Below are positions 1-11,863 of a DNA stretch of 11,863 bases, piece by piece. Position 1 is the first letter of the stretch; each line of letters begins with the position of its first letter. The DNA is from an uncultured Eubacteriales bacterium (lineage in GTDB: Bacteria; Bacillota; Clostridia; Oscillospirales; Acutalibacteraceae), in assembly GCA_900321905.1 (NCBI GenBank), contig ONXZ01000021.1, positions 1-11,863 of the forward strand. The letters run 5' to 3'. Position numbers and translations under genes: made by a program. Below the pieces are notes generated by a model, which saw only the letters and a program-made list of their open reading frames with translations, was not told where the DNA came from and did not search any database.

Positions 1-4
1 ACCG

Positions 5-21
5 CAAGGCTTGACGCCTTG
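5..21. other. Small hairpin at the window's left edge, possibly the end of an upstream gene's terminator
   Basis: CAAGGC (5-10) and GCCTTG (16-21) can pair around the five-base loop TTGAC. A short T run follows at 28-32 but is separated from the stem by GGGTGA, so this is not a clean intrinsic terminator. From here to the promoter at 151 I find no open reading frame with a ribosome binding site and no RNA gene. The stretch is probably the 3' flank of a gene lying outside the window. Confidence 0.25.
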
Positions 22-147
22 GGGTGATTTTTAATACAGTTATAGCGAAAAAGATGCCATTTTCAGGCTGACATTCTTTATGATGGACACCCCTTGCAAG
101 ACTCTTTTTGTTTTTGCCTAACCACAATATATAGTGTGTCAAAATAC

Positions 148-159
148 TTGTTGCAACAA
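148..159. promoter_or_regulatory. Perfect 12-base palindrome over the -35 region, candidate operator
   Basis: TTGTTG at 148-153 is followed directly by its reverse complement CAACAA at 154-159, and the -35 hexamer lies inside it. A second, imperfect 16-base dyad (seven of eight pairs) sits just upstream at 123-138. A repressor bound at 148-159 would block RNA polymerase at the operon promoter. No regulator gene is adjacent, and a palindrome of this length could be chance, so the operator role is inferred from position alone. Confidence 0.3.
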
Positions 160-179
160 CTGCCTAATAATGTTATAAT
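151..179 (+). promoter_or_regulatory. Sigma-A promoter of the surface-polymer operon
   Basis: TTGCAA at 151-156 (four of six matches to TTGACA) is followed by a 17-base spacer and a perfect TATAAT at 174-179. The -10 is extended by TG at 171-172. Transcription would start near 186, leaving a leader of about 25 bases. The ribosome binding site AGGAAG lies at 200-205, five bases before the ATG at 211. Confidence 0.75.
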
Positions 180-210
180 AATATGAAAATAATTAATTTA
201 GGAAGTAACA

Positions 211-1455
211 ATGTCAAGCGCCAATTCAATCATAACTAAGTTAACTAAAAATAATTCGCTGTTCAGAAAGATATATCACAAAGCCTCATACGATTTACGC
301 CTTGTGCGCTACAAAATACGCAAAGCGGGCAAGGGTATTGACGATAAAAAAGTTGTTTTTTCTGCTTTTGCGGGCAGAAAGTATGCCGACTCGCCGCGTG
401 CGATTTATGAGTATATGCTCGGCAGTGACGACTACAAAGATTTTAAATTCGTATGGGTTTTCACTCAGCCTGAAAATTATTCTTTTTTAAAAAACAACCG
501 CAATACCACAATCGTCAAACAGGCTTCAAAAGAGTGCGAACTCGCCTTTGCAACCGCGAAATACTGGGTGACTAACAACCGCACCTCTCAGCACAGATAC
601 CCCACAAAAGGCCAGGTGTTTATTCAAACCTGGCACGGCACGCCGTTAAAACGTCTGCGCTTTGATATTGAAAAACCGCAGGATTTTAACCATACGCGCG
701 ATGAGTTTGCAAAAATGTTTATTGGCGACGCAAAAAAGTTTACCTACTTCCTGTCGCCTTCTGCTTTTGCGAGCGAAAAGTTTATATCCGCATTCGGACT
801 TAAAGAACTCGGCAAGGAGGATATCATCGTTGAGGAGGGTTATCCCCGCAACGACTTTCTTGTTAACTATACGCAGGACGATGTCAACCGCATTAAAACG
901 GAACTCGGCTTGCCGGACGATAAAAAAGTTATACTTTACGCTCCTACCTGGCGCGATGACCAGTTTAAATTCGGCGAGGGATACCAGTACAAACCTGCAG
1001 TTGACTTTGACCGACTGCAAAGAGAAATCGGCGACGATTATGTTATTCTTTACAGAGCGCATTACTACATTTCAAATTCCTTTGATTTTGAAAAGTACGG
1101 TGGATTTGTCCTTGATGTTTCGTCGCTTGACGACATTAACGATTTGTACGTTGTGGCGGATATGCTGATTACGGACTACTCGTCGGTGTTCTTTGACTAT
1201 GCACTGTTAAAGCGACCAATGCTGTTTTATATGTACGACTTTGAACAGTATAAAAATGAACTGCGCGGCTTTTATATCGACATCAGCGAACTGCCGGGTC
1301 CGATAATTAAAACAGAGGACGAACTAATCAACAAAATCAAAAGCACACCCGATGATTTTGAATATGATGAAAAATACAAAAGATTTAACGATAAATTCAA
1401 TTATCTTGATGACGGACACGCGAGTGAACGCGTGGCGAAAAAACTGATTAAGTAA
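211..1455 (+). CDS. CDP-glycerol:glycerophosphate glycerophosphotransferase-like protein (TagB/TagF family)
   Basis: This 414-residue protein belongs to the TagB/TagF family (Pfam Glyphos_transf), GT-B-fold membrane-associated enzymes that move polyol phosphate from CDP-glycerol or CDP-ribitol to a lipid-linked primer or growing chain at the cytoplasmic face. It shows the family motifs in order: W141-H-G-T-P145; E208-E-G-Y-P-R213; a KKVILYAPTWR segment; R282-A-H284, corresponding to the catalytic-site histidine region; and T321-D322-Y-S-S325. The length matches a single-domain primase or polymerase, with no signal peptide or membrane helix. It starts at ATG 211 behind AGGAAG, and the next gene begins 16 bases after its stop. 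It is clearly paralogous to residues 1-400 of that next protein. Sequence alone does not tell whether it primes (TagB), polymerises (TagF/TarL), or uses glycerol or ribitol. No CDP-polyol synthase gene is in the window. Confidence 0.85.
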   Translation: MSSANSIITKLTKNNSLFRKIYHKASYDLRLVRYKIRKAGKGIDDKKVVFSAFAGRKYADSPRAIYEYMLGSDDYKDFKFVWVFTQPENYSFLKNNRNTTIVKQASKECELAFATAKYWVTNNRTSQHRYPTKGQVFIQTWHGTPLKRLRFDIEKPQDFNHTRDEFAKMFIGDAKKFTYFLSPSAFASEKFISAFGLKELGKEDIIVEEGYPRNDFLVNYTQDDVNRIKTELGLPDDKKVILYAPTWRDDQFKFGEGYQYKPAVDFDRLQREIGDDYVILYRAHYYISNSFDFEKYGGFVLDVSSLDDINDLYVVADMLITDYSSVFFDYALLKRPMLFYMYDFEQYKNELRGFYIDISELPGPIIKTEDELINKIKSTPDDFEYDEKYKRFNDKFNYLDDGHASERVAKKLIK

Positions 1456-1471
1456 TCCGAGGAGATATTAA

Positions 1472-4400
1472 ATGGATCCTAAAAAGATTATCAGAAAAGG
1501 CAAAAAGTTTGTTGCACAGAACATTGCCGACAAACCGCGACATATCAGGTATATCAACTTTTTTAAAGAGTGTGATGTTGAGCCGAACACAGTTTTGTAC
1601 CAGGCTTATGCAAACAAAATCCTGGCGGGCAACCCGTATGCTATTTTTCTGCACCTGATTAATAATCCCGAATACTCGCACCTCAAGCACATCTGGCTTA
1701 TCAAGGACAAGTCTATACTCAGTTATCCCGATGTTGCAAAGTATGCAAACGACGACAGAGTTAATTTTGTTATGGACGGCTCTGATGAGGCGCTCAAGGC
1801 GCTTTGCACCGCGCAGTATCTTGTCAATAACGCTGCGTGGCCGTCATACTATGTCAAAAAAGACGACCAGATTTATATTAACACCTGGCACGGCACGCCG
1901 CTCAAGGGACTCGGCAAGTTTGACAAAACTGCAAACCGCCGTCCGATTATGAGCGCGCAGCGCAACTTCTTGAGCGCGGATTACCTTGTTATGCCAAACC
2001 GCTACACTACCGATGTCCTTATGGAGCATTACGATGTCAGAAATGCGTTCAGGGGCAACGTTGTAGAGGAAGGCTATCCTCGTGTTGACCTTGTTGCAAA
2101 TACCGACAGGGAGGAAATGCGCCGCCGCCTTGAAAAAAAGGCAGGCACTTCGCTTGAGGGCAAAAAAGTTATTCTTTATGCTCCGACCTTCCGCAGCGAG
2201 ATGTCTTACGCCAAAAAGCACATTGACAACTCCGATGAAATCTGCGAATACATTGAACATATCGTTGACAATATGCCCGATAATTATGTTATGTTCTTTA
2301 AGGCGCACAGCAACCTTATACAGTATTTCAAGGGCAACAGCAAGATAACAGACCTGTTTTTGTTTGATGATTTTGAAACTAACAAGGTGCTGTCTGCAAC
2401 CGACGTGCTTATCACAGACTACTCGTCTGTATTCTTTGACTATCTTTGCACAAAGCGACCTATTATCTTTTTCACCTATGACAGAGCGCAGTATGAGGGC
2501 GAGCGCGGTCTGCTGTTTTCGCTTGACGAAGTTCCGGGCAGACTCTGCTATACGGAAAAAGATGTTGTTGATAGTCTTGAGCAGATTAACGACAACAAGT
2601 ATAATTACGACGAAAAGTATAATAATTTTATAGATAAATTCGCTTACAAAGATGACGGCGGCGCAACAAAACGCGTTGTCGATATCGTATGGGGCGGCAA
2701 AAAGTCAGACGCAGTGTTTACACCGTCAAGCGGCAAAAAGAGCGTGCTTGTTCACATCGGCACACAGATGGGCAAGGGTCCGCTCGCAAAGTGCGTTATT
2801 GACTATCTTAAGAGTATTAACACCGACGAGTACGATGTGTTCCTGTTTGGCAACTATTTTGAAAAGCAGCGTATGATGTTTGATAATGCCTGCGACGGAA
2901 TACGTTACCTTACAACACTTCCACCGACTGCTTATACCCTTACTGAAGCGGTCAGCAAAACAGTGTTTGGCGTTAACTCAATCAATATTTACGACCGTGA
3001 GTACAAGCGCAATCTCGGCAAGTGCAAGTTTGATTTGATAGTCAACTTCGGCAGCCATATGCCCGTTATCCGCAAAATGCTCGAAACGCAGGCGGATACC
3101 GAGCAGATTATGTACGTTAACAGCGCCGATTATTCAAAATCGCTTGTTAACGATATGCTTAAATTCCCGTACAAAAAGATTGTTGTGCTTGAGGATAAAA
3201 ACACAAAGTGCGATTCTTTTGCGGACAGCCGTGTAGAAATCAGGAAAGTCAGCCCTAAAACCGACAATATTCATCAGTATATGCTTGATATGAATATGCC
3301 GATGAAGGTGCTGTTCATTGCCTGCTTTGATTCGATGAATCACGCGTTTGTCAACATTATAAGGGAACTCGAAAAGCGCGGACATCTTTACAAAATTCTT
3401 ATCCGCGACCTCGACGATGAAGTTAACAACCTGATGTTTGCAGGCAATCCTAACATTGTTTCAATAGACGATTTTGACTACAAGAGCCTTGGCGAATACG
3501 ATTTTGTAGTCGGCGCGCCGATTAAGTTCCGCCGATTCAGAAAACTCTACAGGCAGATTGACAATCGCGGACTGTTTGTTTACACCTTCTCAAACCTGTT
3601 CTCCTCAATCACAATGCGTGTTGCGGCGGACGCTGTTATCACTATCGGTGAAAACAAGTTTAAGGAGTTTGAATCAAACTTCCTCAAATACAATATGATT
3701 GCCGCAGGCAACCCGCAGTACGATACCCTTGTGGAAAAGCGCAGGGGCGATATTAAAAACGAGGATATCAAAAAAATACTGTTCCTTGAGCAGGGCGCAT
3801 ATCCTTGCGGCGACAAGGGCAAAAAGCAACTTGCCGACACGCTTATTAATATGGCGGAGATGAATCCTGATAAGGAAATTCATATCAAGCCGCGTTACCT
3901 GCTTGATGATTCCGTCAAGAGTATTCACGTTGTGTCAGAGCATATTTACAACTACTTTGACCGCGTGCCTGAAAACCTCGTTTTGATTAATGAAAATCAG
4001 ATACTTGAGGAAATAATCGTTGACTACGATGCGGTTATAACTATGTGGAGCACGGCGTTCCTTGACGCAATTGCGCTCAATATGCCGCTTATGCTGATTG
4101 GCGGTTTTGACTCCGACGACGTGTTTGATATCAGGACTAACCGTGTGCAGGACGCTTACGACGAACTTGCCGAAAGCGGAGTGCTTGTTGATTTCAGGGA
4201 TATTATGGACAAGCCGCTTGAGTTCAAGCCTGTCAGCACCGATTTCCAGAAGAAGGAACTTATCAACTTCGACAAGCCCTGCTCGCCGTTTGTTGTCGAT
4301 TTGTTTGAAACCGTTAACAACAAACTCATAATTCCTGATTTGCGTTATGCAGGTTTCTTTGAAGTGACTTACAGAGATATCGCAAAAACGCTTGACGAAA

Positions 4401-5221
4401 TTAAACTTTACAATATGCACAGCGCAAAGTACCTGCGCTGGAAGGAAACTTACACTAAGTTTAACGAACTTATGCAGGAATATGTTTACATCAACAGATG
4501 TATGGGCAACATATTTGATTTGTCCGCTATGACGGCGATTATGGAAAACTGCAAGGTCGGCGACAGCATTGACGTTGAAAAACTGCTTGCAGATAAGTTT
4601 GCTGAAATAGAGGATAACTTCTATAACAACCCTGCAAATATCGAAAGGGCGAAAGAGGATAAAATCCTGTTTGACTTCTACTGCGACTGGCTGTACCGCA
4701 AAGGCAGGCTTGCCGAAATCGCAAATTTTGAAGGCACGCACGACGAGGTGCAGGAAGAAATTGAGTACTACACCGCTATTCGCTGCCTGAAACTCGGCAG
4801 GCAGGGCAAGGCTATACAGCACATTACACAGTATCTCACCTGCATAGTTGCCAAAAACAAAAAGGCGGAACTGCTCAAAGAAAAGCGTATGTACGACTAT
4901 ACCCAGCCGTTTTTGGAACCCAAGCACCGCTACAGTTTTATCAAGTATCTTTATGAAAATAAAAAGGTCGAGGAACTTGAACTGCTGAACTTTACTGTTT
5001 TGCAGCGCGACCCGATGACCGCGTACTTCAAAATGAAACTGTATAACGAACTCGGAGATTACGAAAAAGCGGTTGAGATTTATGACACGCTTGTCAACAG
5101 TCCGAACAGTCAACCTTCAATTTCCAAAATAATTGCAAAAAATCTATTTACAAATAAAGTAGAAATAGAGTATAATTATGCTAACAAAAACTTAGTTAAA
5201 TCTAACGATACGGAAAAATAA
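1472..5221 (+). CDS. Multidomain polymerase: TagF-like polyol-phosphate transferase fused to a GT-B-like transferase region and TPR-like tail
   Basis: This 1249-residue protein has at least three parts. Residues 1 to about 405 are a complete TagF-like domain: W139-H-G-T-P143, E199-E-G-Y-P-R204, K277-A-H279 and T315-D316-Y-S-S319. Residues 422 to about 600 form a Rossmann-like segment opening KKSVLVHIG, like the front half of a GT4 enzyme. From M609 (MKVLFIACFDSMNHAF) to about 910 is a second GT-B-like unit with H804-I-K-P-R808 and W859-S-T-A862. This may be equivalent to the basic/HP and S-T motifs of CMP-sugar transferases, but that is a guess. Residues about 950-1249 are alpha-helical, with a TPR-like repeat near 1187-1217 (LGDYEKAVEIYDTLV). 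AGGAG at 1460-1464 supports the start. Fused TagF, GT and TPR architecture is known in Gram-negative teichoic-acid-like capsule polymerases. Its place directly before the CMP-nonulosonate genes suggests it transfers that sugar as well as polyol phosphate. The N-terminal call is firm; the middle-domain substrate is inference. Confidence 0.8.
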   Translation: MDPKKIIRKGKKFVAQNIADKPRHIRYINFFKECDVEPNTVLYQAYANKILAGNPYAIFLHLINNPEYSHLKHIWLIKDKSILSYPDVAKYANDDRVNFVMDGSDEALKALCTAQYLVNNAAWPSYYVKKDDQIYINTWHGTPLKGLGKFDKTANRRPIMSAQRNFLSADYLVMPNRYTTDVLMEHYDVRNAFRGNVVEEGYPRVDLVANTDREEMRRRLEKKAGTSLEGKKVILYAPTFRSEMSYAKKHIDNSDEICEYIEHIVDNMPDNYVMFFKAHSNLIQYFKGNSKITDLFLFDDFETNKVLSATDVLITDYSSVFFDYLCTKRPIIFFTYDRAQYEGERGLLFSLDEVPGRLCYTEKDVVDSLEQINDNKYNYDEKYNNFIDKFAYKDDGGATKRVVDIVWGGKKSDAVFTPSSGKKSVLVHIGTQMGKGPLAKCVIDYLKSINTDEYDVFLFGNYFEKQRMMFDNACDGIRYLTTLPPTAYTLTEAVSKTVFGVNSINIYDREYKRNLGKCKFDLIVNFGSHMPVIRKMLETQADTEQIMYVNSADYSKSLVNDMLKFPYKKIVVLEDKNTKCDSFADSRVEIRKVSPKTDNIHQYMLDMNMPMKVLFIACFDSMNHAFVNIIRELEKRGHLYKILIRDLDDEVNNLMFAGNPNIVSIDDFDYKSLGEYDFVVGAPIKFRRFRKLYRQIDNRGLFVYTFSNLFSSITMRVAADAVITIGENKFKEFESNFLKYNMIAAGNPQYDTLVEKRRGDIKNEDIKKILFLEQGAYPCGDKGKKQLADTLINMAEMNPDKEIHIKPRYLLDDSVKSIHVVSEHIYNYFDRVPENLVLINENQILEEIIVDYDAVITMWSTAFLDAIALNMPLMLIGGFDSDDVFDIRTNRVQDAYDELAESGVLVDFRDIMDKPLEFKPVSTDFQKKELINFDKPCSPFVVDLFETVNNKLIIPDLRYAGFFEVTYRDIAKTLDEIKLYNMHSAKYLRWKETYTKFNELMQEYVYINRCMGNIFDLSAMTAIMENCKVGDSIDVEKLLADKFAEIEDNFYNNPANIERAKEDKILFDFYCDWLYRKGRLAEIANFEGTHDEVQEEIEYYTAIRCLKLGRQGKAIQHITQYLTCIVAKNKKAELLKEKRMYDYTQPFLEPKHRYSFIKYLYENKKVEELELLNFTVLQRDPMTAYFKMKLYNELGDYEKAVEIYDTLVNSPNSQPSISKIIAKNLFTNKVEIEYNYANKNLVKSNDTEK
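5147..5176 (+). promoter_or_regulatory. Internal promoter for the nonulosonate genes
   Basis: TTTACA at 5147-5152 (five of six matches to TTGACA), an 18-base spacer and a perfect TATAAT at 5171-5176 lie inside the last 25 codons of the preceding gene, in a locally AT-rich patch. The start would be near 5183, giving a leader of about 50 bases with AAGGAG at 5221-5226. This would let the synthase, phosphatase and cytidylyltransferase be expressed beyond read-through from the promoter at 151. Confidence 0.6.
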
Positions 5222-5234
5222 AGGAGTTAAATTT

Positions 5235-6098
5235 ATGAAAAAACCAAGAGTAATTGCTGAAATCGGTTGTAACCACAAAGGCGATATGGAAATTGCTAAA
5301 AAACTCATTGACGTTGCTAAAAACTACTGCAATGCCGATGTTGTTAAGTTCCAGAAGCGCCACATTCCCACCTGGGTTGAAAGGTATCCGGAACTTTACA
5401 ATGCACCTCACCCAAATCCGATTAACGCATACGGTCACACTTACAGAGAGCACAGAGAGGCTCTTGAATTTACAAAAGAGCAGAACAGAGAACTCAAGGA
5501 ATACTGTGAGAGTATCGGCATTGTTTGGAGCACGTCTGTGTGGGATATGGTTTCCGCTCAGGAGATTGCTGACCTCAAACCTGAACTTATCAAGGTTCCT
5601 TCTGCCTGCAACACAAACCTTGAAATGCTTGAGTGGCTTTGCGATAACTACGACGGCGAAATTCACATTTCAACAGGTATGACCACCTCAAAGGAAACTG
5701 ATGATATCGTTGAACTCTTTGAGAAAAAAGGCAGAAACAAAGACCTTGTTCTTTACAACTGCACATCGGGTTATCCTGTTCCGTTTAAAGATGTTTGCCT
5801 GCTTGAAATCTGCAATCTGCAGGAAAAGTACGGCGACAGAGTTAAGGAAATCGGCTTCTCCGGTCACCACCTCGGTATCGCAGTAGACGTTGCCGCTTAC
5901 ACACTCGGCGCAACTACAGTTGAGCGCCACTACACACTCGACAGAACCTGGAAGGGTACCGACCACGCTGCTTCTCTTGAGCCTGAGGGAATGCGCAAAC
6001 TTGTCCGCGACCTCAACGCTGTTCACGAAGCGCTGACCTACAAAGAGGTAGAAGTGCTTGACATCGAGGAAGTACAGAGAAAGAAGTTAAAGTGGTAA
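5235..6098 (+). CDS. neuB: Nonulosonate (sialic-acid-type) synthase, NANS-like, without SAF domain; probable KDN-9-P or Neu5Ac-9-P synthase
   Basis: The NeuB/NANS family condenses phosphoenolpyruvate with an N-acylmannosamine or mannose (6-phosphorylated in some members) to give a nine-carbon keto acid. This 287-residue protein is essentially the whole TIM barrel: IAE9IGCNH14KG; VKFQKR; STSVWD; a KVPSACNTN stretch; HISTGM; YNCTSGYP; then H211 and H232, whose 21-residue spacing matches the two metal-binding histidines of Neisseria NeuB. Y66-GHTYREH73, FSGHH and T238-W-K-G-T-D-H244 look like animal NANS rather than the usual bacterial SDHT and GPDH forms. This points to a 6-phosphorylated substrate. 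The chain ends at the linker (VQRKKLKW) where the antifreeze-like SAF domain would begin. AAGGAG eight bases upstream fixes the start. It is followed by the cytidylyltransferase and phosphatase genes expected for CMP-KDN or CMP-Neu5Ac. The family is certain; the exact sugar is inferred. Confidence 0.88.
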   Translation: MKKPRVIAEIGCNHKGDMEIAKKLIDVAKNYCNADVVKFQKRHIPTWVERYPELYNAPHPNPINAYGHTYREHREALEFTKEQNRELKEYCESIGIVWSTSVWDMVSAQEIADLKPELIKVPSACNTNLEMLEWLCDNYDGEIHISTGMTTSKETDDIVELFEKKGRNKDLVLYNCTSGYPVPFKDVCLLEICNLQEKYGDRVKEIGFSGHHLGIAVDVAAYTLGATTVERHYTLDRTWKGTDHAASLEPEGMRKLVRDLNAVHEALTYKEVEVLDIEEVQRKKLKW

Positions 6099-6109
6099 GG
6101 AGAACCCAA

Positions 6110-6793
6110 ATGGCTAATAAAAACGTTGCGTTTATTCCTGTAAGGGGCGGCAGCAAGTCTATTCCGTTTAAAAATATCAAGCCAATCGCAGGCAAACCGC
6201 TTGTCCTCTGGACAATCGAAGCCGCCGCAAAGTGCAAGTCGATTGACAAGGTTTATGTTTCCACTGACTCTGATAAAATCAGGGAAGTGGCGCAGACCTA
6301 CCGCGGCGAAGGCTGCGAAAAAGTTGAGGTTATCTCGCGCAGTGCCGAAACTGCAAACGATACCGCTTCAACCGAGTCTGCAATGCTTGAATTTGCAAAC
6401 AACTACGATTTTGAAAATATTGTTCTTGTTCAGGCAACGAGTCCGCTGCTGAGTGCTGAGGATATCCAGAAAGGCTTTGACAAGTACGGCGATTACGACA
6501 GCATTATCTCGCTCGTTGAGCAAAAGCGTTTTATCTGGGCAGACGATGGCGAAGGCGGCGTTAAGTCGTCAAACTACGACCACTTCCACCGCCCGAGACG
6601 TCAGGAATTTGACGGCTATCTTGTTGAAAACGGTGCGTTTTATATCACTTCAAAGGAAAGACTGCTTGCTACCGGCAACAGACTTTCGGGTAAAATCGGC
6701 GCAGTAGTTATGCCTGAGGAAACGTATTTTGAAATTGACGAGCCGTCAGACTGGATTATTATTGAAAACCTACTTAACGCAAAACAGGACTAA
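6110..6793 (+). CDS. neuA: CMP-nonulosonate (acylneuraminate/KDN) cytidylyltransferase
   Basis: This 227-residue GT-A-like nucleotidyltransferase activates a nonulosonic acid with CTP, giving the CMP-sugar and pyrophosphate. It carries the CTP-binding opening I9-P-V-R12-G-G-S-K16 (usually ARxGSKG), then KN22IKPIAGKPL, the Q108-A-T-S-P-L113 stretch and a late E208-I-D210 that takes the place of the usual D-x-D metal site. The length is typical of single-domain NeuA. A GTG at 6092 would add six residues, but it lies before the stop of the upstream gene. AAGGAG at 6097-6102 sits seven bases before ATG 6110, so I choose that start. The next gene begins two bases after its stop, suggesting coupled translation. 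A Kdo-specific enzyme (KdsB) is less likely given the NeuB-family synthase next door. Confidence 0.87.
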   Translation: MANKNVAFIPVRGGSKSIPFKNIKPIAGKPLVLWTIEAAAKCKSIDKVYVSTDSDKIREVAQTYRGEGCEKVEVISRSAETANDTASTESAMLEFANNYDFENIVLVQATSPLLSAEDIQKGFDKYGDYDSIISLVEQKRFIWADDGEGGVKSSNYDHFHRPRRQEFDGYLVENGAFYITSKERLLATGNRLSGKIGAVVMPEETYFEIDEPSDWIIIENLLNAKQD

Positions 6794-6795
6794 TT

Positions 6796-7269
6796 ATGAT
6801 TAAGTTATTTATCACCGACTGCGACGGCTGTATGACCGATGGCGGTATGTATTATGACAACCTCGGCAACGAGTGGAAAAAGTTTAATGCTCGCGACGGT
6901 ATGGGCTTTGAGATGCTGCGCAACAGCGGCGTGCTGACGGGTATTATCAGCAGCGAAAACACACCCCTGCTTGAACGCCGCGCGACAAAACTCAAGATTG
7001 ACGAATTTCATCAGGGCGCAAAAAATAAGCCGGAGGTGCTGGCTGAAATTTTGCAGCGCACCGGCATTGATTACAGCGAGGTTGCGTACCTCGGCGACGA
7101 CATCAACGACCTTAAAATGATGGATTTAGTCGGCTTGACCTTCTGCCCGAACGACGCTATGAAGCAGATTCAGCCAAAGGTTGACGTTATACTTAATAAA
7201 AAAGGCGGCGAAGGCGCTGTGCGCGAAGCCGCAGAATATGTTATTGAACTAAATGAAAAGGCTGACTGA
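6796..7269 (+). CDS. KdsC-like HAD phosphatase, probable KDN-9-P / Neu5Ac-9-P phosphatase
   Basis: This is a 157-residue, cap-less (C0) HAD phosphatase of the KdsC/KDN9P-phosphatase branch. Such enzymes work as tetramers and remove the terminal phosphate from a keto-sugar acid before CMP activation. Visible motifs are D8-C-D10-G-C-M-T-D15-G (nucleophile and acid/base), the KdsC-like F30-N-A-R-D34-G-M-G, motif II at I51-S-S53, K78 of motif III and G100-D101-D102 with N104-D105 of motif IV, then GGEGAVRE near the end. After motif II it has E54, R62 and K65. That spacing matches the Glu, Arg and Lys of Bacteroides thetaiotaomicron KDN9P phosphatase (E56, R64, K67, from memory), where the Glu/Lys pair distinguishes KDN9P from Kdo8P enzymes. 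The start at 6796 has AGGA six bases upstream. Its presence implies that the synthase product is phosphorylated. Confidence 0.85.
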   Translation: MIKLFITDCDGCMTDGGMYYDNLGNEWKKFNARDGMGFEMLRNSGVLTGIISSENTPLLERRATKLKIDEFHQGAKNKPEVLAEILQRTGIDYSEVAYLGDDINDLKMMDLVGLTFCPNDAMKQIQPKVDVILNKKGGEGAVREAAEYVIELNEKAD

Positions 7270-7280
7270 GTCAGCCTTTT
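7256..7280. terminator. Bidirectional intrinsic terminator overlapping the operon's last stop codon
   Basis: An 11-bp perfect stem (arm AAAAGGCTGAC at 7256-7266, complement at 7270-7280) encloses a three-base loop that is exactly the TGA stop codon of the phosphatase gene (7267-7269). The stem ends in TTTT on both strands, so it can stop the operon from the left and also transcription arriving from the glycosyltransferase gene on the right. Confidence 0.8.
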
Positions 7281-7284
7281 ATTA

Positions 7285-7453
7285 ATGGAGAATTGAGAGT
7301 TGAGAATTGAGAATTAATGTTACTCGGCTCCGCCTCAAACAAATAATTTTTGAACAGCATTTTATCAACGATGATTGTAGGGGCTGGCGCCCTCGACAGC
7401 CCGTTTTATTGCCCGAGCGAAGCGAGAAACCGGAATTCTCCATTCTCAATTCA
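7285..7453. repeat. MITE-like short intergenic repeat element
   Basis: The left edge carries near-tandem copies of a GAGAATT unit (7287-7316) and the right edge carries the unit in inverted orientation (7433-7452), so the element has imperfect inverted ends. Inside is GTAGGGGCTGGCGCC (7378-7392) with a GGGCTG...CAGCCC stem, a short T-rich stretch and a GAGCGAAGCGAG segment. I recall similar modules recurring between genes of gut Clostridia. It encodes no protein that I can support, and it fills the gap between two convergent genes. Its right end supplies the TGA stop codon of the glycosyltransferase gene. Confidence 0.5.
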
Positions 7454-8392
7454 GAGATTATTCCGCTTCATTACATCTTTTGCGATGTAGATTGGGCGAT
7501 TTTTAACTTGCTGATAGATTTTTGCTATATACTCGCCGATTATGCCGAGTATCACAAGCGTTATACCCGCAAAGAATGTTATCAGTATTACAAGTTGCGT
7601 AAAACCGTCCACGTTGATGTGCGATGTCAGTTTGCGTATAACCGTAACTATCAGATATATCAGCGAAAATATTGTTGCGCCCGTGCCGATGTAAATTGCA
7701 AGTTTGAGCGGCGCTGTGGAAAATGCAATTATTCCCGATATCGCGTATCTTACAAGTTTGCCGAAACTCCACTTTGTTTCGCCGCTGTTGCGCTCGTCAG
7801 CACGGTATTCCATATAATGCACGTTGAAGCCGACCCAACTGAAAATGCCTTTTGAAAAACGGTGGTATTCGCCGAGCGACAGGATTGCGTCGCGCACCTT
7901 CGTGTTGAACAGGCGGAAGTCGCTTGCGCCGTTTTTGAACTCTGTTTCAGCGAGAGTGTTCATCAGTTTGTAAAACAGCGACTTCATACCGCTCATAATT
8001 TTGCCCTCTTTACGCACGTTCTGGTAAGCGCACACGCAGTCAAAATCGCGGTTTGAGGTGATGAATTTATACATATCAAGTGCAGTTACAGGGCGCTGCT
8101 GCAAGTCGGCGTCAATAATGCAGATATACTTGCCGCTTGCGTGCTGCAAGCCTGCGTATATTGCGCTCTCTTTGCCGAAGTTGCGCGAGAAATCAATAAT
8201 GCTGATGTTTTTGCTAACGTGCGCTTCAAACAGCGATTTCAGCGCTTCGCCTGTTTTGTCGCTGCTGCCGTCGTTGACAAAAACATATTCGTATTTTATG
8301 CCTGAAAGTGCAAATACTTTTTCACTCTCGTCAAAAAATTTTTCAACATTGCCCTGCTCGTTGTAGCAGGGTATTACAAGCGATAAATCCAT
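7451..8392 (-). CDS. GtrB/DPM-type family 2 glycosyltransferase with C-terminal membrane anchor
   Basis: The 313-residue protein begins MDLSLVIPCYNEQ, the GT2 opening, followed by F38-V-N-D41-G-S-S-D45, a SRNFGKE stretch at 69-75 and the metal-binding D94-A-D96. Two hydrophobic helices at about 222-250 and 263-290 anchor it in the membrane. This layout fits GtrB, CsbB and dolichyl-phosphate-mannose-synthase-like enzymes, which load a hexose or amino sugar onto undecaprenyl phosphate for use outside the membrane. The sugar cannot be told from sequence. The usual DADLQDPP is DADLQQRP here, a departure just after the DxD. The frame extends 21 codons upstream, but AAAAAGGAC before ATG 8392 and the promoter at 8424-8452 favour this start. 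No partner flippase (GtrA) or acceptor transferase is adjacent. It converges on the polymer operon, so a role in decorating that polymer is possible but unproven. Confidence 0.82.
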   Translation of the reverse strand: MDLSLVIPCYNEQGNVEKFFDESEKVFALSGIKYEYVFVNDGSSDKTGEALKSLFEAHVSKNISIIDFSRNFGKESAIYAGLQHASGKYICIIDADLQQRPVTALDMYKFITSNRDFDCVCAYQNVRKEGKIMSGMKSLFYKLMNTLAETEFKNGASDFRLFNTKVRDAILSLGEYHRFSKGIFSWVGFNVHYMEYRADERNSGETKWSFGKLVRYAISGIIAFSTAPLKLAIYIGTGATIFSLIYLIVTVIRKLTSHINVDGFTQLVILITFFAGITLVILGIIGEYIAKIYQQVKNRPIYIAKDVMKRNNL

Positions 8393-8423
8393 AGTTTTAT
8401 CAGTCCTTTTTAAAAGTAATACC

Positions 8424-8452
8424 AATATAACATATATTTGGCGAAAATTCAA
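8424..8452 (-). promoter_or_regulatory. Promoter of the GtrB-like glycosyltransferase gene
   Basis: Read on the minus strand, TTGAAT (8452-8447), a 17-base spacer and TATATT (8429-8424) form a good sigma-A promoter with an extended TG one base before the -10. Transcription would start near 8417, about 25 bases before the ATG at 8392, with AAAAAGGAC in between. Confidence 0.6.
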
Positions 8453-8464
8453 CAAACAATACTA

Positions 8465-8492
8465 TTGACAAATGGAAAATAAAGACTATAAT
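8465..8492 (+). promoter_or_regulatory. Full-consensus sigma-A promoter of htpG
   Basis: TTGACA at 8465-8470 and TATAAT at 8487-8492 are both perfect hexamers, with a 16-base spacer. The start point would fall near 8499, inside the CIRCE operator. A strong promoter held down by a repressor is the usual design for CIRCE-controlled chaperone genes. Confidence 0.85.
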
Positions 8493-8496
8493 ATAA

Positions 8497-8523
8497 TTAG
8501 CACTCACGGGCAGAGAGTGCTAA
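8497..8523 (+). promoter_or_regulatory. CIRCE element (HrcA operator), perfect inverted repeat
   Basis: TTAGCACTC at 8497-8505, a nine-base spacer and GAGTGCTAA at 8515-8523 match the CIRCE consensus with no mismatch. CIRCE binds the heat-shock repressor HrcA. Here it begins four bases after the -10 box and covers the predicted start site, so bound HrcA would block initiation of htpG. The hrcA gene is not in this window. Confidence 0.95.
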
Positions 8524-8542
8524 TTTTGCAGAAATCTTAATT

Positions 8543-8551
8543 AGAAGGTGA
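8543..8551 (+). promoter_or_regulatory. Ribosome binding site that fixes a TTG start for htpG
   Basis: AGAAGGTGA differs from the ideal AGGAGGTGA at one base and lies five bases before TTG 8557. The GTG at 8548 that would open the same frame three codons earlier sits inside this Shine-Dalgarno sequence and has none of its own, so TTG is the likely start. Confidence 0.75.
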
Positions 8552-8556
8552 ACATT

Positions 8557-10431
8557 TTGAGAAAAAAACAATTTAAAGCAGAATCAAAAAAACTCCTTGA
8601 TATGATGATAAATTCGATTTACACCCACAAGGAAATCTTTTTAAGAGAACTTATTTCAAACGCGAGCGATGCCACGGACAAACTCTATTTCAAATCGCTT
8701 ACAGATACAAGTATTGCGACTGACAATCTTGAAATCCGCATTGACCTTGACAAGGACGCGCGCACTATTACAGTGTCCGATAACGGTATCGGTATGACTC
8801 CCGATGAACTTGAAAAGAACCTCGGCACTATCGCAAAATCAGACTCCCTCAACTTCAAAAAAGATAACGAGGGCGATGAAAATATGGAAAACATCGAGGT
8901 TATCGGTCAGTTTGGCGTAGGCTTTTACTCGTCATTTATGGTTGCCGACAAAGTTGAAGTTGTATCAAAGGCACTCGGCAGCGATGAAGCCGCAAAATGG
9001 GTCAGCGAAGGCGCTGACGGCTACACAATCGAGCCTTGTGAAAAGGACACAGTCGGCACCGTTATTACACTGCATATCAAAGAAAACACAGATAATGACG
9101 ACTACAATCAATATCTTGAGCAGTACAAAATTCAGGAACTTGTTAAAAAGTACAGCGACTATATCCGCTATCCTATTGTGATGGAGATGACTTCGCAGGT
9201 ACCGGACCCTGAAAAAGAGGGCGAGTACATCACCGAAGTTAATGACGAAAAACTGAACTCGCAGGTTCCGCTTTGGCGCAAGAGCAAGAGCGAAATCAAG
9301 GACGAGGATTACAACGAATTTTACAAGCAAAAGTTTTATGACTACACAGACCCTGCGCTTGTTATACACTCAAAAACCGAAGGACAGGCTACGTTTGACG
9401 CACTTATGTTTGTGCCTAAAAACGCACCGATGGACTTTTATTCAAAAGAGTATGAAAAGGGCCTGCAACTCTACTCAAACGGTGTGCTGATTATGGACAA
9501 GTGTGCCGACCTTCTGCCTGATTATTTCAGTTTCGTAAAAGGTCTTGTTGACAGCGCAGATTTGTCGCTCAACATTTCACGCGAAATTTTGCAGCACGAC
9601 CACCAACTTAAAATCATCGCAAAGGCGATTGATAAAAAGATTAAATCGGAACTCACAAAACTCCTGCGCAAAGAGCGTGAAAAGTATGAGGAAATCTGGA
9701 AAACCTTTGGTGTTCAGATTAAGTGGGGCGTTTATGCCGACTACGGTATGAACAAAGATGGGCTCAAAGACCTGCTTCTGTTCAAATCGTCAAACGGCGG
9801 CTGGGTAACGCTTAAAGAATACCGCGACAGAATGGCAGATTCTCAGGACACTATTTACTATGCATGCGGCGACAGCGAGGACAAAATCGCCCTTCTTCCG
9901 CAGTGCGAAGCGGTTAAGGAAAAAGGTTTTGAGGTGCTTTACTTCACCGACGAGGTGGACGAGTTCGCAATCCAAATGCTGATGGAATACGACGGCAAGC
10001 ACTTTGCAAATATTCTCAAAGATGACTTTGACCTGTCAACTGACGCTGAAAAAGAGGCTATGCAGAAGAAGAACGAGGACTCAAAAGAGTGGCTCGGTAA
10101 GATGAAAGACCTGCTCGGTGATGAGGTTACAGCCGTTAAACTCACAAACAAACTCGGTTCGCACGCCGTATCGCTTGCGGCAGAGGGCTATATGAGCCTT
10201 GAAATGGCAAAAGTTTTTGCACAGATGCCGGGCGCAAACGACCAGGTGAAAGCGCAACTTGTGCTTGAAATCAGTTCATCGCACCCGATTGCAGATAAAC
10301 TCGCGTCGGCAGATGACGCAACGCTTGAAAAATATACAAAAATTCTTTACAACCAGGCAAGGCTTATTGCAGGACTTTCCGTTGACAATCCTACCGAACT
10401 TGCAGACAGCATAGCAGACCTGATGGTGTAA
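8557..10431 (+). CDS. htpG: Molecular chaperone HtpG (bacterial Hsp90)
   Basis: HtpG is an ATP-driven homodimeric cytosolic chaperone that remodels partly folded clients together with DnaK. The 624-residue chain is full length. The N-terminal GHKL ATPase domain shows E31-L-I-S-N35-A-S-D38 (catalytic Glu and Mg-binding Asn), D75-N-G-I-G79-M and G117-Q-F-G-V-G122-F, the lid glycines. The middle domain carries N339-I-S-R342-E-I-L-Q, whose arginine corresponds to the ATP-sensing Arg of yeast Hsp90. The C-terminal dimerisation domain follows to residue 624, without the eukaryotic MEEVD tail. The start is TTG 8557, giving the family-typical M-R-K-K-Q-F-K-A-E-S N-terminus. The gene stands alone, with its own consensus promoter and CIRCE operator upstream and a hairpin and terminator downstream. 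Confidence 0.97.
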   Translation: MRKKQFKAESKKLLDMMINSIYTHKEIFLRELISNASDATDKLYFKSLTDTSIATDNLEIRIDLDKDARTITVSDNGIGMTPDELEKNLGTIAKSDSLNFKKDNEGDENMENIEVIGQFGVGFYSSFMVADKVEVVSKALGSDEAAKWVSEGADGYTIEPCEKDTVGTVITLHIKENTDNDDYNQYLEQYKIQELVKKYSDYIRYPIVMEMTSQVPDPEKEGEYITEVNDEKLNSQVPLWRKSKSEIKDEDYNEFYKQKFYDYTDPALVIHSKTEGQATFDALMFVPKNAPMDFYSKEYEKGLQLYSNGVLIMDKCADLLPDYFSFVKGLVDSADLSLNISREILQHDHQLKIIAKAIDKKIKSELTKLLRKEREKYEEIWKTFGVQIKWGVYADYGMNKDGLKDLLLFKSSNGGWVTLKEYRDRMADSQDTIYYACGDSEDKIALLPQCEAVKEKGFEVLYFTDEVDEFAIQMLMEYDGKHFANILKDDFDLSTDAEKEAMQKKNEDSKEWLGKMKDLLGDEVTAVKLTNKLGSHAVSLAAEGYMSLEMAKVFAQMPGANDQVKAQLVLEISSSHPIADKLASADDATLEKYTKILYNQARLIAGLSVDNPTELADSIADLMV

Positions 10432-10525: not shown

Positions 10526-11105
10526 ATTTATTCAGCATCATCAGAGTTTGTACATAACCTGTTGAGGCAAACATTTTTTGGTATGTCACAACAAAATTCT
10601 TTTGTTTCATTTGCTCAATAAGGCGGCGTGTCAGCGTGTCGTACATCAGGTTGAAGTCGCGCTCATACGACAGCGCAATCGCTTCGTCCACAAGTTCAAA
10701 CACGGCGTCGTCGTGCTTGTTGTCGGCAAAAATCGTCATAACCTTCAGCCTTTTGTTGCGCGGGGCAATCAGGTGCGTGATGTATGACAAGTTGCCGCGG
10801 TAGTAAAACATAGCGGGAGCGCTCTTAAATTTCTTCATTCGCTTTGCGCCTTTGCCGCTGAATTTGTGCGACGAGCGGCGCGGACTTGCCAGCACCACAA
10901 GTACGTCAAAATTCTCGTCTGTCAGCACATAGTCGTGGCATTCAATCCAGCGAGGAATGTTGTATCTCAAATATGCTTCAACAAAATCAAGGCGTTCGCT
11001 GCCGTCGGGACACATAAACTTAAAAATTTTATGGTCCACAATTTTCGGCGCCAAAATTTCGCTCAGTTTTTTAATATCTTTATCCTTCAGATCTTTGAGC
11101 CGCAT
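10524..11105 (-). CDS. Diverged GNAT-like (acetyltransferase-fold) protein of unknown function
   Basis: I recognise this 193-residue protein only by its outline. The opening (MRLKDLKDKDIKKLSEILAP), an EAYLRYNIPRWIECHDYVLTD stretch with a following VLVVLASP, and the end (RLIEQMKQKNF, then TGYVQTLMML) follow the layout of a common Firmicute GNAT family. The acetyl-CoA phosphate-binding R/QxxGxG/A loop is not visible; the equivalent place reads ADNKHDDA. It may be inactive, use another ligand or be a different fold. It has no signal peptide or membrane helix and is rich in Lys and Arg. I place the start at ATG 11105, nine bases after AGGAG (11119-11115, minus strand); the longer frame to 11153 has no such site. 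It overlaps the end of the upstream transporter gene by 26 bases, so the two are probably co-translated. Confidence 0.6.
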   Translation of the reverse strand: MRLKDLKDKDIKKLSEILAPKIVDHKIFKFMCPDGSERLDFVEAYLRYNIPRWIECHDYVLTDENFDVLVVLASPRRSSHKFSGKGAKRMKKFKSAPAMFYYRGNLSYITHLIAPRNKRLKVMTIFADNKHDDAVFELVDEAIALSYERDFNLMYDTLTRRLIEQMKQKNFVVTYQKMFASTGYVQTLMMLNK

Positions 11106-11863
11106 TATCTGCATCTCCTGTAATAGTATGTTCTTTTTCGAGTTTTTTAACAACTACCGACAGCATTATCAAACTCATAACAATGCACACAAAATCTGCC
11201 GCGGGTTGCGCCCAGATTATACCGTCAAGACCGATTGCTTTGTCCATAATGAACAGCAACGGCAGAAAAATCAAACCCTGACGTCCTACGGCAAGCAGCA
11301 GCGACTGCATACCCTTGCCCATACCCTGGAACGAAAAGTTGATTATAAACATTATTCCTATCAGCGCGCCTGATGACATTAGCGCTGTCAGCATTTTTAC
11401 GCCGTATTCTATAACTTCGCCGTTATCAATAAACATACCGATAACCTGTCTGCGGAAAAAGATGTAAACAGTCGTCATCACGCCGCCGATAATTATGTTG
11501 CACAGCATACTAAAACGCATACTGTTTTTCATTCTCAAATAGTTTTTTGCGCCGTAGCAGTAACCGACAAGCGGCTGAATACCCTGCGCAAGACCGAGTT
11601 GCAGCATAACAACAAGCATATTCGCTTTCATCGCAACGCCCATTGCCGCAACAGCGGTGTCGCCGTAGTGCGACAAAAACATATTTATAACTATATTTGA
11701 TACACTCATCAAAAGATTGTTGAGTGCCGCAGGAAGTCCCACGTTGATTACGCCCTTTGCAATGCCGTTTTTAACTGAAAAACGCTTTGGCGTGATTGAT
11801 AGTATCGACTTGCCGCGCAAGAAGTAAACAAGGAAGTACAGCACGCTCACAACGTTGCCCAAC
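11080..11863 (-). CDS. MATE-family multidrug/metabolite transporter, C-terminal part (truncated by window edge)
   Basis: About 261 residues are present, running off the right edge. The first in-frame codon, TTG at 11862, reads as an internal leucine (LGNVVSVLYFL), not a start. The visible part has about six hydrophobic helices, matching the second six-helix bundle of MATE transporters. It includes the VGLPAALNNLLMSVSN segment typical of the start of helix 7, then GLAQGIQPLVGYCYGAKN, which repeats the family's pseudo-twofold motif, and a GMGKGMQS loop. MATE proteins export drugs or metabolites in exchange for sodium or protons across the cytoplasmic membrane. The hydrophilic tail (KKLEKEHTITGDADNAAQRSEG) contains the ribosome binding site and start of the next gene. 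The substrate cannot be judged. Confidence 0.85.
   Translation of the reverse strand, partial: LGNVVSVLYFLVYFLRGKSILSITPKRFSVKNGIAKGVINVGLPAALNNLLMSVSNIVINMFLSHYGDTAVAAMGVAMKANMLVVMLQLGLAQGIQPLVGYCYGAKNYLRMKNSMRFSMLCNIIIGGVMTTVYIFFRRQVIGMFIDNGEVIEYGVKMLTALMSSGALIGIMFIINFSFQGMGKGMQSLLLAVGRQGLIFLPLLFIMDKAIGLDGIIWAQPAADFVCIVMSLIMLSVVVKKLEKEHTITGDADNAAQRSEG

Follow-up and report, generated by a model that had tools for sequence, protein, structure and literature searches.

A predicted single-chain glycerol-phosphate/KDN polymerase with a DUF6716 unit in an uncultured Clostridia bacterium

Contig ONXZ01000021.1 of an uncultured Eubacteriales bacterium (assembly GCA_900321905.1) encodes a 1249-residue protein next to genes for a nonulosonic acid activated with cytidine monophosphate (CMP), and this raises the question of which surface polymer such a protein could build. 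The window analysed here is the whole stretch of 11,863 nucleotides, which is one whole contig of a 1.76 Mb genome that is 84% complete. The named records close to it are Clostridia metagenomes, several of them rumen- or gut-derived, and the host is therefore taken as a gut Clostridium. A tight operon at 211-7269 holds a TagF/TarF-type gene, the gene for the 1249-aa protein, NeuB, NeuA and a KdsC-type phosphatase, with intergenic gaps of 16, 13, -7 and 2 bases in that order (Table 1). On balance, the 1249-aa protein is predicted to be a single-chain polymerase of glycerol phosphate and KDN, a relative of sialic acid, and a unit of the DUF6716 family within it is predicted, with good confidence, to be the CMP-nonulosonate transferase.

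The 1249-aa open reading frame is real and conserved. At E <= 1e-5, 17 homologues of like length (1057-1249 aa) were identified and both Pfam domains are present in 16, which excludes a chance open reading frame. An earlier note on this DNA had described a TagF-like domain, a GT4-like N-terminal half (422-600), a second unit of the glycosyltransferase B (GT-B) type (609-910) and a tail resembling tetratricopeptide repeats (TPR), and all but the last were recovered. In the TagF-like domain H140 aligns with H444 of TagF (position counted by hand), and K277, H279, D316, S318 and S319 are invariant in all 15 aligned sequences. Residues 27-551 align with 375-894 of Cps3D, the best solved relative, and the alignment extends beyond the CgoT domain of Cps3D, which is of TagF type. 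As the CgaT domain of Cps3D spans 748-1136 in the accessible text of PMC11666461, the polymerase past residue ~414 matches the N-terminal half of that GT-B domain. The AlphaFold model of residues 600-935 is a complete two-half GT-B (pLDDT 86.5). Among the 15 homologues the TagF domain (59% mean identity) and residues 612-910 (58%, 57 of 299 invariant, gap-free) are strongly kept; the GT4-type half is poorly kept (residues 422-605, 32%, 3 invariant of 184). The tail, residues 931-1249, has 34% mean identity, and its TPR_6 (13.9 bits, cut-off 26.3) and TPR_8 (12.7 bits) matches are both below the cut-offs, so that its TPR character was not confirmed.

The relative P0018 starts at the first residue of the DUF6716 unit and P0019 some 14 residues earlier. 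Our reading is that the GT4-type domain had its C-terminal half displaced by this unit, or that the unit joined behind a half already lacking it. L003 was considered as a stand-alone relative and rejected, its VTDYSS motif being, by eye, that of a TagF-type GT-B.

That the second unit might be related to the actinobacterial DUF6716 proteins had been suggested in the earlier note, and this proved correct. Residues 712-879 match PF20471 (DUF6716) at 33.4 bits against a cut-off of 27, and all 10 related genomes have a match that passes it too. A profile of 11 members of the fused family matches one built from 15 actinobacterial DUF6716 proteins; the match spans 288 columns with a probability of 97.3 and an E-value of 1.7e-11, at a sequence identity between the two groups of only 16-20%. 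Five residues (Q774, R808, H819, S860 and T861) are invariant across 22 rows spanning both groups. Within the 15 aligned sequences K806, R808, S860 and T861 are invariant, so the S-T motif picked out by the earlier note stands. The H804-I-K-P-R808 motif stands for its lysine and arginine; position 804 is a histidine in only 6 of 15, the others having Y, E, V, T or D there, and it is H819 that is conserved. When the two profiles are compared, D620 lines up with D7, an aspartate invariant in the actinobacterial set, and the joint alignment does not list D620 as invariant. CMP-sugar GT-B enzymes serve as an analogy for the catalytic residues, by which D620 is a candidate base and K806, R808 and H819, with S860-T861, are candidate phosphate contacts.

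An argument for the donor comes from gene linkage. A pattern-based scan with the alignment of the unit, run against a collection that represents 84,980 species by a single genome each, gave 10 loci (L004-L013). The earlier note had proposed to look for TagF fusions beside neuB and neuA, and NeuB, NeuA and KdsC were present within a few kb of the unit at all ten, with NeuA and KdsC fused in six. The family is rare, a full match being found in 1 of 391 genomes of the class, that of the window. DUF6716 is over its cut-off in 17 of 396 Actinomycetota genomes, including one Coriobacteriia genome already among the loci. The other 16 are covered by 18 regions, five PF20471 genomes below the cut-off being left out; NeuB is present in 17 of these regions, and each of the 17 also has NeuA, KdsC or both. 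Only NeuB and KdsC aligned in L068, and only NeuB and NeuA in L069 and L078, where another phosphatase or sugar may serve.

The linked NeuB sequences of the two groups fall in two far-apart clades, separated by a very long branch, so the DUF6716-NeuB link has held across two NeuB lineages. The Coriobacteriia protein (L013:9749-11695) consists of DUF6716 and a tail, with no TagF on its chain, and is beside NeuB and NeuA-KdsC; this points to DUF6716 rather than TagF as the partner of the nonulosonate genes. L013 was omitted from the structure alignment, as the reading frame is broken in its 5' part, next to a run of N. The actinobacterial proteins, including those of Streptomyces, are homologous to the unit along its full length and have NeuB and NeuA-KdsC next to them as in the window, but have no TagF on their chain, whereas here the unit is fused to TagF. 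The first TagF protein of the window had no match in the 18 actinobacterial regions (tblastn, E <= 1e-4). Some genomes have doubled copies of DUF6716, with two genes per cluster in L067 and L080, while G582 and G752 each have two copies placed apart; this might mean two KDN linkages or two steps.

A reverse search with the phosphatase against 291 genomes of the class gave 13 matches, including that of the window itself. The four best other loci (L082-L085) have this NeuB too, along with a fused NeuA-KdsC, and a Maf-type gene upstream of NeuB (PF01973 over its cut-off in all four, the Maf N-terminal domain PF20157 in two), either directly before it (L083, L085) or with one gene between (L082, L084). 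DUF6716 had no match within the stretches fetched for these loci, two of which end at contig ends. Maf proteins are flagellin nonulosonate transferases. The 640-aa genes of these loci were tried as DUF6716 relatives and rejected, being of Maf type by Pfam and by profile comparison of one of them. It is possible that L082-L085 are KDN-type flagellin glycosylation clusters. PF01973 is over its cut-off in all four L082-L085 genomes, versus 1 of the 11 DUF6716 genomes (G397), with weak matches below the cut-off in G392 and G395; PolyST was found in none of the 11.

In the operon of the window, the transferases seen by Pfam are two TagF domains and DUF6716. The earlier statement that the operon partners include no other obvious transferase for the nonulosonate thus holds for the operon, with the qualification that a second TagF-type gene is part of it and a GT2 gene lies behind it. 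This GT2 is of the PgfS/ArnC type, enzymes that use polyprenyl phosphate. It has counterparts in L004, L005 and L008.

Which nonulosonate is made is best judged from the phosphatase. Its nearest solved chain is 3e81 (137.6 bits), which we take, going only by the name of NCBIfam model NF058599, to be the Bacteroides KDN-9-phosphate phosphatase. It is followed by 4hgq and 4hgr, whose letters differ from 3e81 at two of the Glu/Arg/Lys positions, as mutants would. Further solved chains are a YrbI-family phosphatase (108.6 bits) and chains named KdsC (at most 102.1). The Glu/Arg/Lys set, E54/R62/K65, is present throughout loci L004-L013 (10 of 10), in 14 of 15 aligned actinobacterial phosphatases (three regions gave no alignable phosphatase) and in 4 of 4 Maf loci, and in none of the seven remaining loci of the class. 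L011 and L012, like L084 and L085, have mannose-phosphate isomerase-like genes next to the cluster. The solved relatives of NeuA are PpNeuA and CMP-Neu5Ac synthetases. Judged by the phosphatase and the isomerase-like neighbours, KDN is the most likely sugar, and strongly so. The KDN pathway of Bacteroides thetaiotaomicron comprises a synthase, a phosphatase and a cytidylyltransferase; the window has the same three enzyme types, and the phosphatase residues are common to both. We know of no TagF fusion linked to that pathway. KDN synthesis in this organism is cited in the part of PMC12413058 that was available.

Several observations count against a CMP-KDN transferase and a KDN polymerase. The top fold matches of the unit are proteins using uridine diphosphate (UDP) sugars (2-epimerases, MurG), with TMq of only 0.49-0.60, and the actinobacterial DUF6716 proteins match general GT4-type models (Glyco_trans_1_4 in 5 of 15) no more weakly or rarely than PF05159 (4 of 15 at E <= 1). 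Other transferase genes are near, namely the GT2 that follows the window operon on the minus strand, and GT4 genes in both L007 and L009, with an additional GT2 in L009. G397 has its Maf on another contig, GT52 was silent in DUF6716 genomes and in controls alike, so that its absence is not shown, and the genome of the window is incomplete. The DUF6716 copy of L074 has no nonulosonate genes nearby; its genome has another copy, and that one is linked. L069 and L078 have no KdsC match. The L067 phosphatase is without the Glu/Arg/Lys residues, and that of the window, at 164.4 bits, does not reach the KDN-9-phosphatase cut-off of 180.

This last point is also consistent with an N-acyl nonulosonate made via a 9-phosphate, for example Neu5Ac, since the NeuB and NeuA profiles do not separate sugars. 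The residue set, the nearest solved phosphatase and the mannose-phosphate isomerase-like neighbours argue for KDN instead, and an N-acyl sugar is considered improbable.

The fold does not decide the donor. Proteins that use cytidine diphosphate (CDP), the TagF domains, score within 1-2 Z of the UDP-using proteins, and in the model the GT-B fold does not identify the nucleotide. The structure check gave the fold that had been expected for the second unit and left its donor to the linkage with NeuB and NeuA, and the earlier proposal of a polyol-phosphate/nonulosonate copolymer, with 609-910 as the transferase, is partly supported. It could be argued from the UDP-using folds that DUF6716 transfers a UDP-sugar, as in hexose-KDN teichulosonic acids, with an unrecognised protein elsewhere transferring KDN; the GT2 behind the operon and the glycosyltransferase genes of the L007 and L009 clusters would fit this, and galactose accompanies KDN in Streptomyces teichulosonic acid according to the accessible text of PMC11481543. 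Against this, a Maf-type gene takes the place of DUF6716 beside the same NeuB/NeuA-KdsC module in related genomes, Maf and PolyST are nearly or wholly missing from the DUF6716 genomes over cut-off, the operon has no other transferase that Pfam recognises, the nearby GT2 belongs to the PgfS/ArnC type, and CDP-using TagF domains match about as well. A UDP-sugar donor is therefore regarded as improbable, and a CMP-nonulosonate remains the predicted donor.

PolyST (PF07388), GT52 (PF07922) and Maf (PF01973) are not among the five Pfam families that match the window protein at E <= 1. PF05159, the family of KpsC/KpsS-type Kdo transferases, has no Pfam match in the window protein, and weakly matches the DUF6716 unit in 4 of 11 genomes, in one at the cut-off of 20 bits. 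The GT38 polysialyltransferase 5wcn is at Foldseek rank 46 and is not among the 50 VIA-align rows, which excludes nothing. Sequence searches of solved structures with the unit profile and with the actinobacterial profile gave chance-level matches only. An actinobacterial DUF6716 query found 3342 proteins among 8000 candidates scored; among the matches listed, the organism names were all Streptomyces and no function was given. No paper naming DUF6716 was found in the open-access subset. The NCBIfam glycosyltransferase model BFO_1060 matches 1 of 11 slices of the DUF6716 unit at 1e-6; among seven whole proteins scanned it matches only P0011, in the TagF part, at 4e-4, and no paper on it was found. 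The DUF6716 model is also over its cut-off in an Escherichia coli control genome.

For the polyol, the CDP-glycerol synthase TagD is over its cut-off in 10 of 11 DUF6716 genomes, including that of the window, versus 2 of 14 controls, which makes CDP-glycerol the likely donor. TagA (PF03808) is found in only 1 of the 11, which is not the 84% complete genome of the window, and in 7 of 14 controls; the canonical linkage unit is thus probably unused. LicD, ABC-2 and exporter-type ABC genes precede the polymerase in L007 and L009, and an ABC-2 gene is beside it in L010. G396 is the sole genome without TagD over the cut-off. Behind NeuA-KdsC in L009 (13881-15068) is a short-chain dehydrogenase fused to a TagD-like cytidylyltransferase, which may make the CDP-polyol of G396. 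Directly ahead of the polymerase in L007 (6067-8286) is a gene whose 739-aa product carries a citrate lyase ligase C-terminal domain.

The domain content, the GT-B fold, the gene linkage, the phosphatase residues and the genomic CDP-glycerol synthase are together consistent with the following route, in which the donor of each domain, the alternation, the acceptor, the anchor and the export are predictions. NeuB would make KDN-9-phosphate, presumably from mannose-6-phosphate, the KdsC-type phosphatase would strip its phosphate, and NeuA would convert KDN to CMP-KDN. The TagF domain would then transfer glycerol phosphate from CDP-glycerol to a hydroxyl of KDN, and the DUF6716 unit would transfer KDN from CMP-KDN to the glycerol end, so that the chain could grow as a glycerol-phosphate/KDN copolymer. 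The first TagF-type gene, which scores 322 bits against the TarF profile, under its cut-off of 550, probably primes or links the chain.

Since a separate TagF-type gene could make a glycerol-phosphate chain, DUF6716 might use CMP-KDN and yet add KDN as side branches, or as a separate block, on poly(glycerol phosphate), with no alternation in the backbone. DUF6716 exists without TagF in L013 and P0018, and a title cited in the accessible part of PMC9000132 names a KDN-backbone polymer of Streptomyces. This is rather unlikely, as characterised TagF-like polymerases of such architecture form backbones from both activities, as far as the available text of PMC5974469 describes them. An alternating backbone is preferred here.

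Promoter-like consensus sites number 26 in positions 1-8700, with 16.4 expected. A perfect TTGACA-16-TATAAT promoter-like site is present at 8465-8492, ahead of HtpG (8548-10431), and a partial transporter, MATE-like by eye, is at 11080-11862 on the minus strand.

Table 1. Features of the window around the polymerase gene
Feature	Position	Strand	Basis
Promoter-like site (TTGCAA, 17 nt, TATAAT; TG before the second hexamer)	151..179	+	31 bases ahead of first gene; consensus match only
TagF/TarF-type glycerophosphotransferase, 414 aa; candidate primer/linker enzyme	211..1455	+	PF04464, 383 bits
Polymerase, 1249 aa (predicted)	1472..5221	+	Open reading frame, ATG start
TagF-like domain, residues 34-407; predicted CDP-glycerol:glycerophosphotransferase	1571..2692	+	PF04464, 265 bits
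GT4-type N-terminal half-domain, residues ~414-600, without C-terminal half	2711..3271	+	Alignment with Cps3D to its residue 894
DUF6716 GT-B unit, residues ~612-910; predicted CMP-KDN transferase	3305..4201	+	Pfam, profile comparison, model
K806-P807-R808, conserved motif of DUF6716 unit	3887..3895	+	Alignments
S860-T861, invariant in actinobacterial DUF6716 too	4049..4054	+	Alignments
Tail, residues 931-1249, weakly conserved, possibly TPR-like (below cut-off)	4262..5218	+	Pfam, alignment
NeuB-type nonulosonate(-9-phosphate) synthase, 287 aa	5235..6098	+	PF03102, 225 bits
NeuA-type CMP-nonulosonate synthetase	6092..6793	+	PF02348; later ATG at 6110
KdsC-type HAD phosphatase, KDN-9-phosphate type	6796..7269	+	NF058599, 164.4 bits (cut-off 180); nearest solved chain 3e81; E54/R62/K65
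Terminator-like hairpin over phosphatase stop codon; likely operon end	7256..7280	+	Called on - strand; + letters give same hairpin, then TTTTATT
GT2-type gene, PgfS/ArnC type, behind operon	7451..8455	-	Family profile matches

Polymerases that combine TagF-like and GT-B domains are of a known kind (PMC5974469). In the accessible text of PMC11666461, Cps3D combines a transferase for glycerol phosphate with another one of GT-B type, the polymer of Cps7D is written (Gal-Gro3P)n, and Cps7A, which is TagF-like, transfers Gro3P to Kdo. As in Cps3D and Cps7D, the window protein has a TagF domain and then a GT-B activity on one chain. It differs from them in that the second transferase is DUF6716 rather than a complete GT4-type domain, and in that the partner genes make a CMP-nonulosonate. 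The TPR of Cps3D is N-terminal (PMC11666461, same text), whereas the sub-threshold TPR scores of the window protein are in its C-terminal tail. A member that transfers a nonulosonate was not seen in the accessible parts of these two papers, and no TagF-nonulosonate copolymer was apparent, by title or start of abstract, among the matches listed for the open-access subset. The polymerase is probably a new form within the TagF-like group, and DUF6716 a probable family of CMP-KDN transferases.

The walls of Streptomyces carry a phosphate-free teichulosonic acid with KDN (PMC11481543, accessible text), and in Streptomyces coelicolor the region for teichulosonic acid synthesis is SCO4873-SCO4882 (PMC13011467, accessible text). 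A paper on umbrella toxins was set aside as a source on this polymer, its accessible text having one mention only and teichuronic acid as its subject. The polymer predicted here shares KDN as a building block, and possibly the transferase family, with teichulosonic acid; it differs in that the fused TagF predicts a phosphate-containing polymer, whereas teichulosonic acid has no phosphate. There is about an even chance that the wider picture is as follows: DUF6716, a GT-B family hitherto without an assigned role, comprises CMP-KDN transferases that assemble the KDN chains in the teichulosonic acids of actinobacteria, and a member has been grafted, in gut Clostridia, onto a TagF-like polymerase where the C-terminal GT4 half used to be, to make poly(KDN-glycerol phosphate), a nonulosonate teichoic acid and a new class of wall polymer.

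If this is true, thousands of uncharacterised DUF6716 proteins would gain a testable donor and role, and there would be a concrete candidate for a Streptomyces teichulosonic acid transferase, as well as a one-enzyme route to KDN-containing polymers. A surface chain of glycerol phosphate and KDN would be a new kind of wall polymer. Gut Clostridia would then display a doubly charged, sialic-acid-like wall polymer, which would bear on host lectins, phage receptors and gut sialidases.

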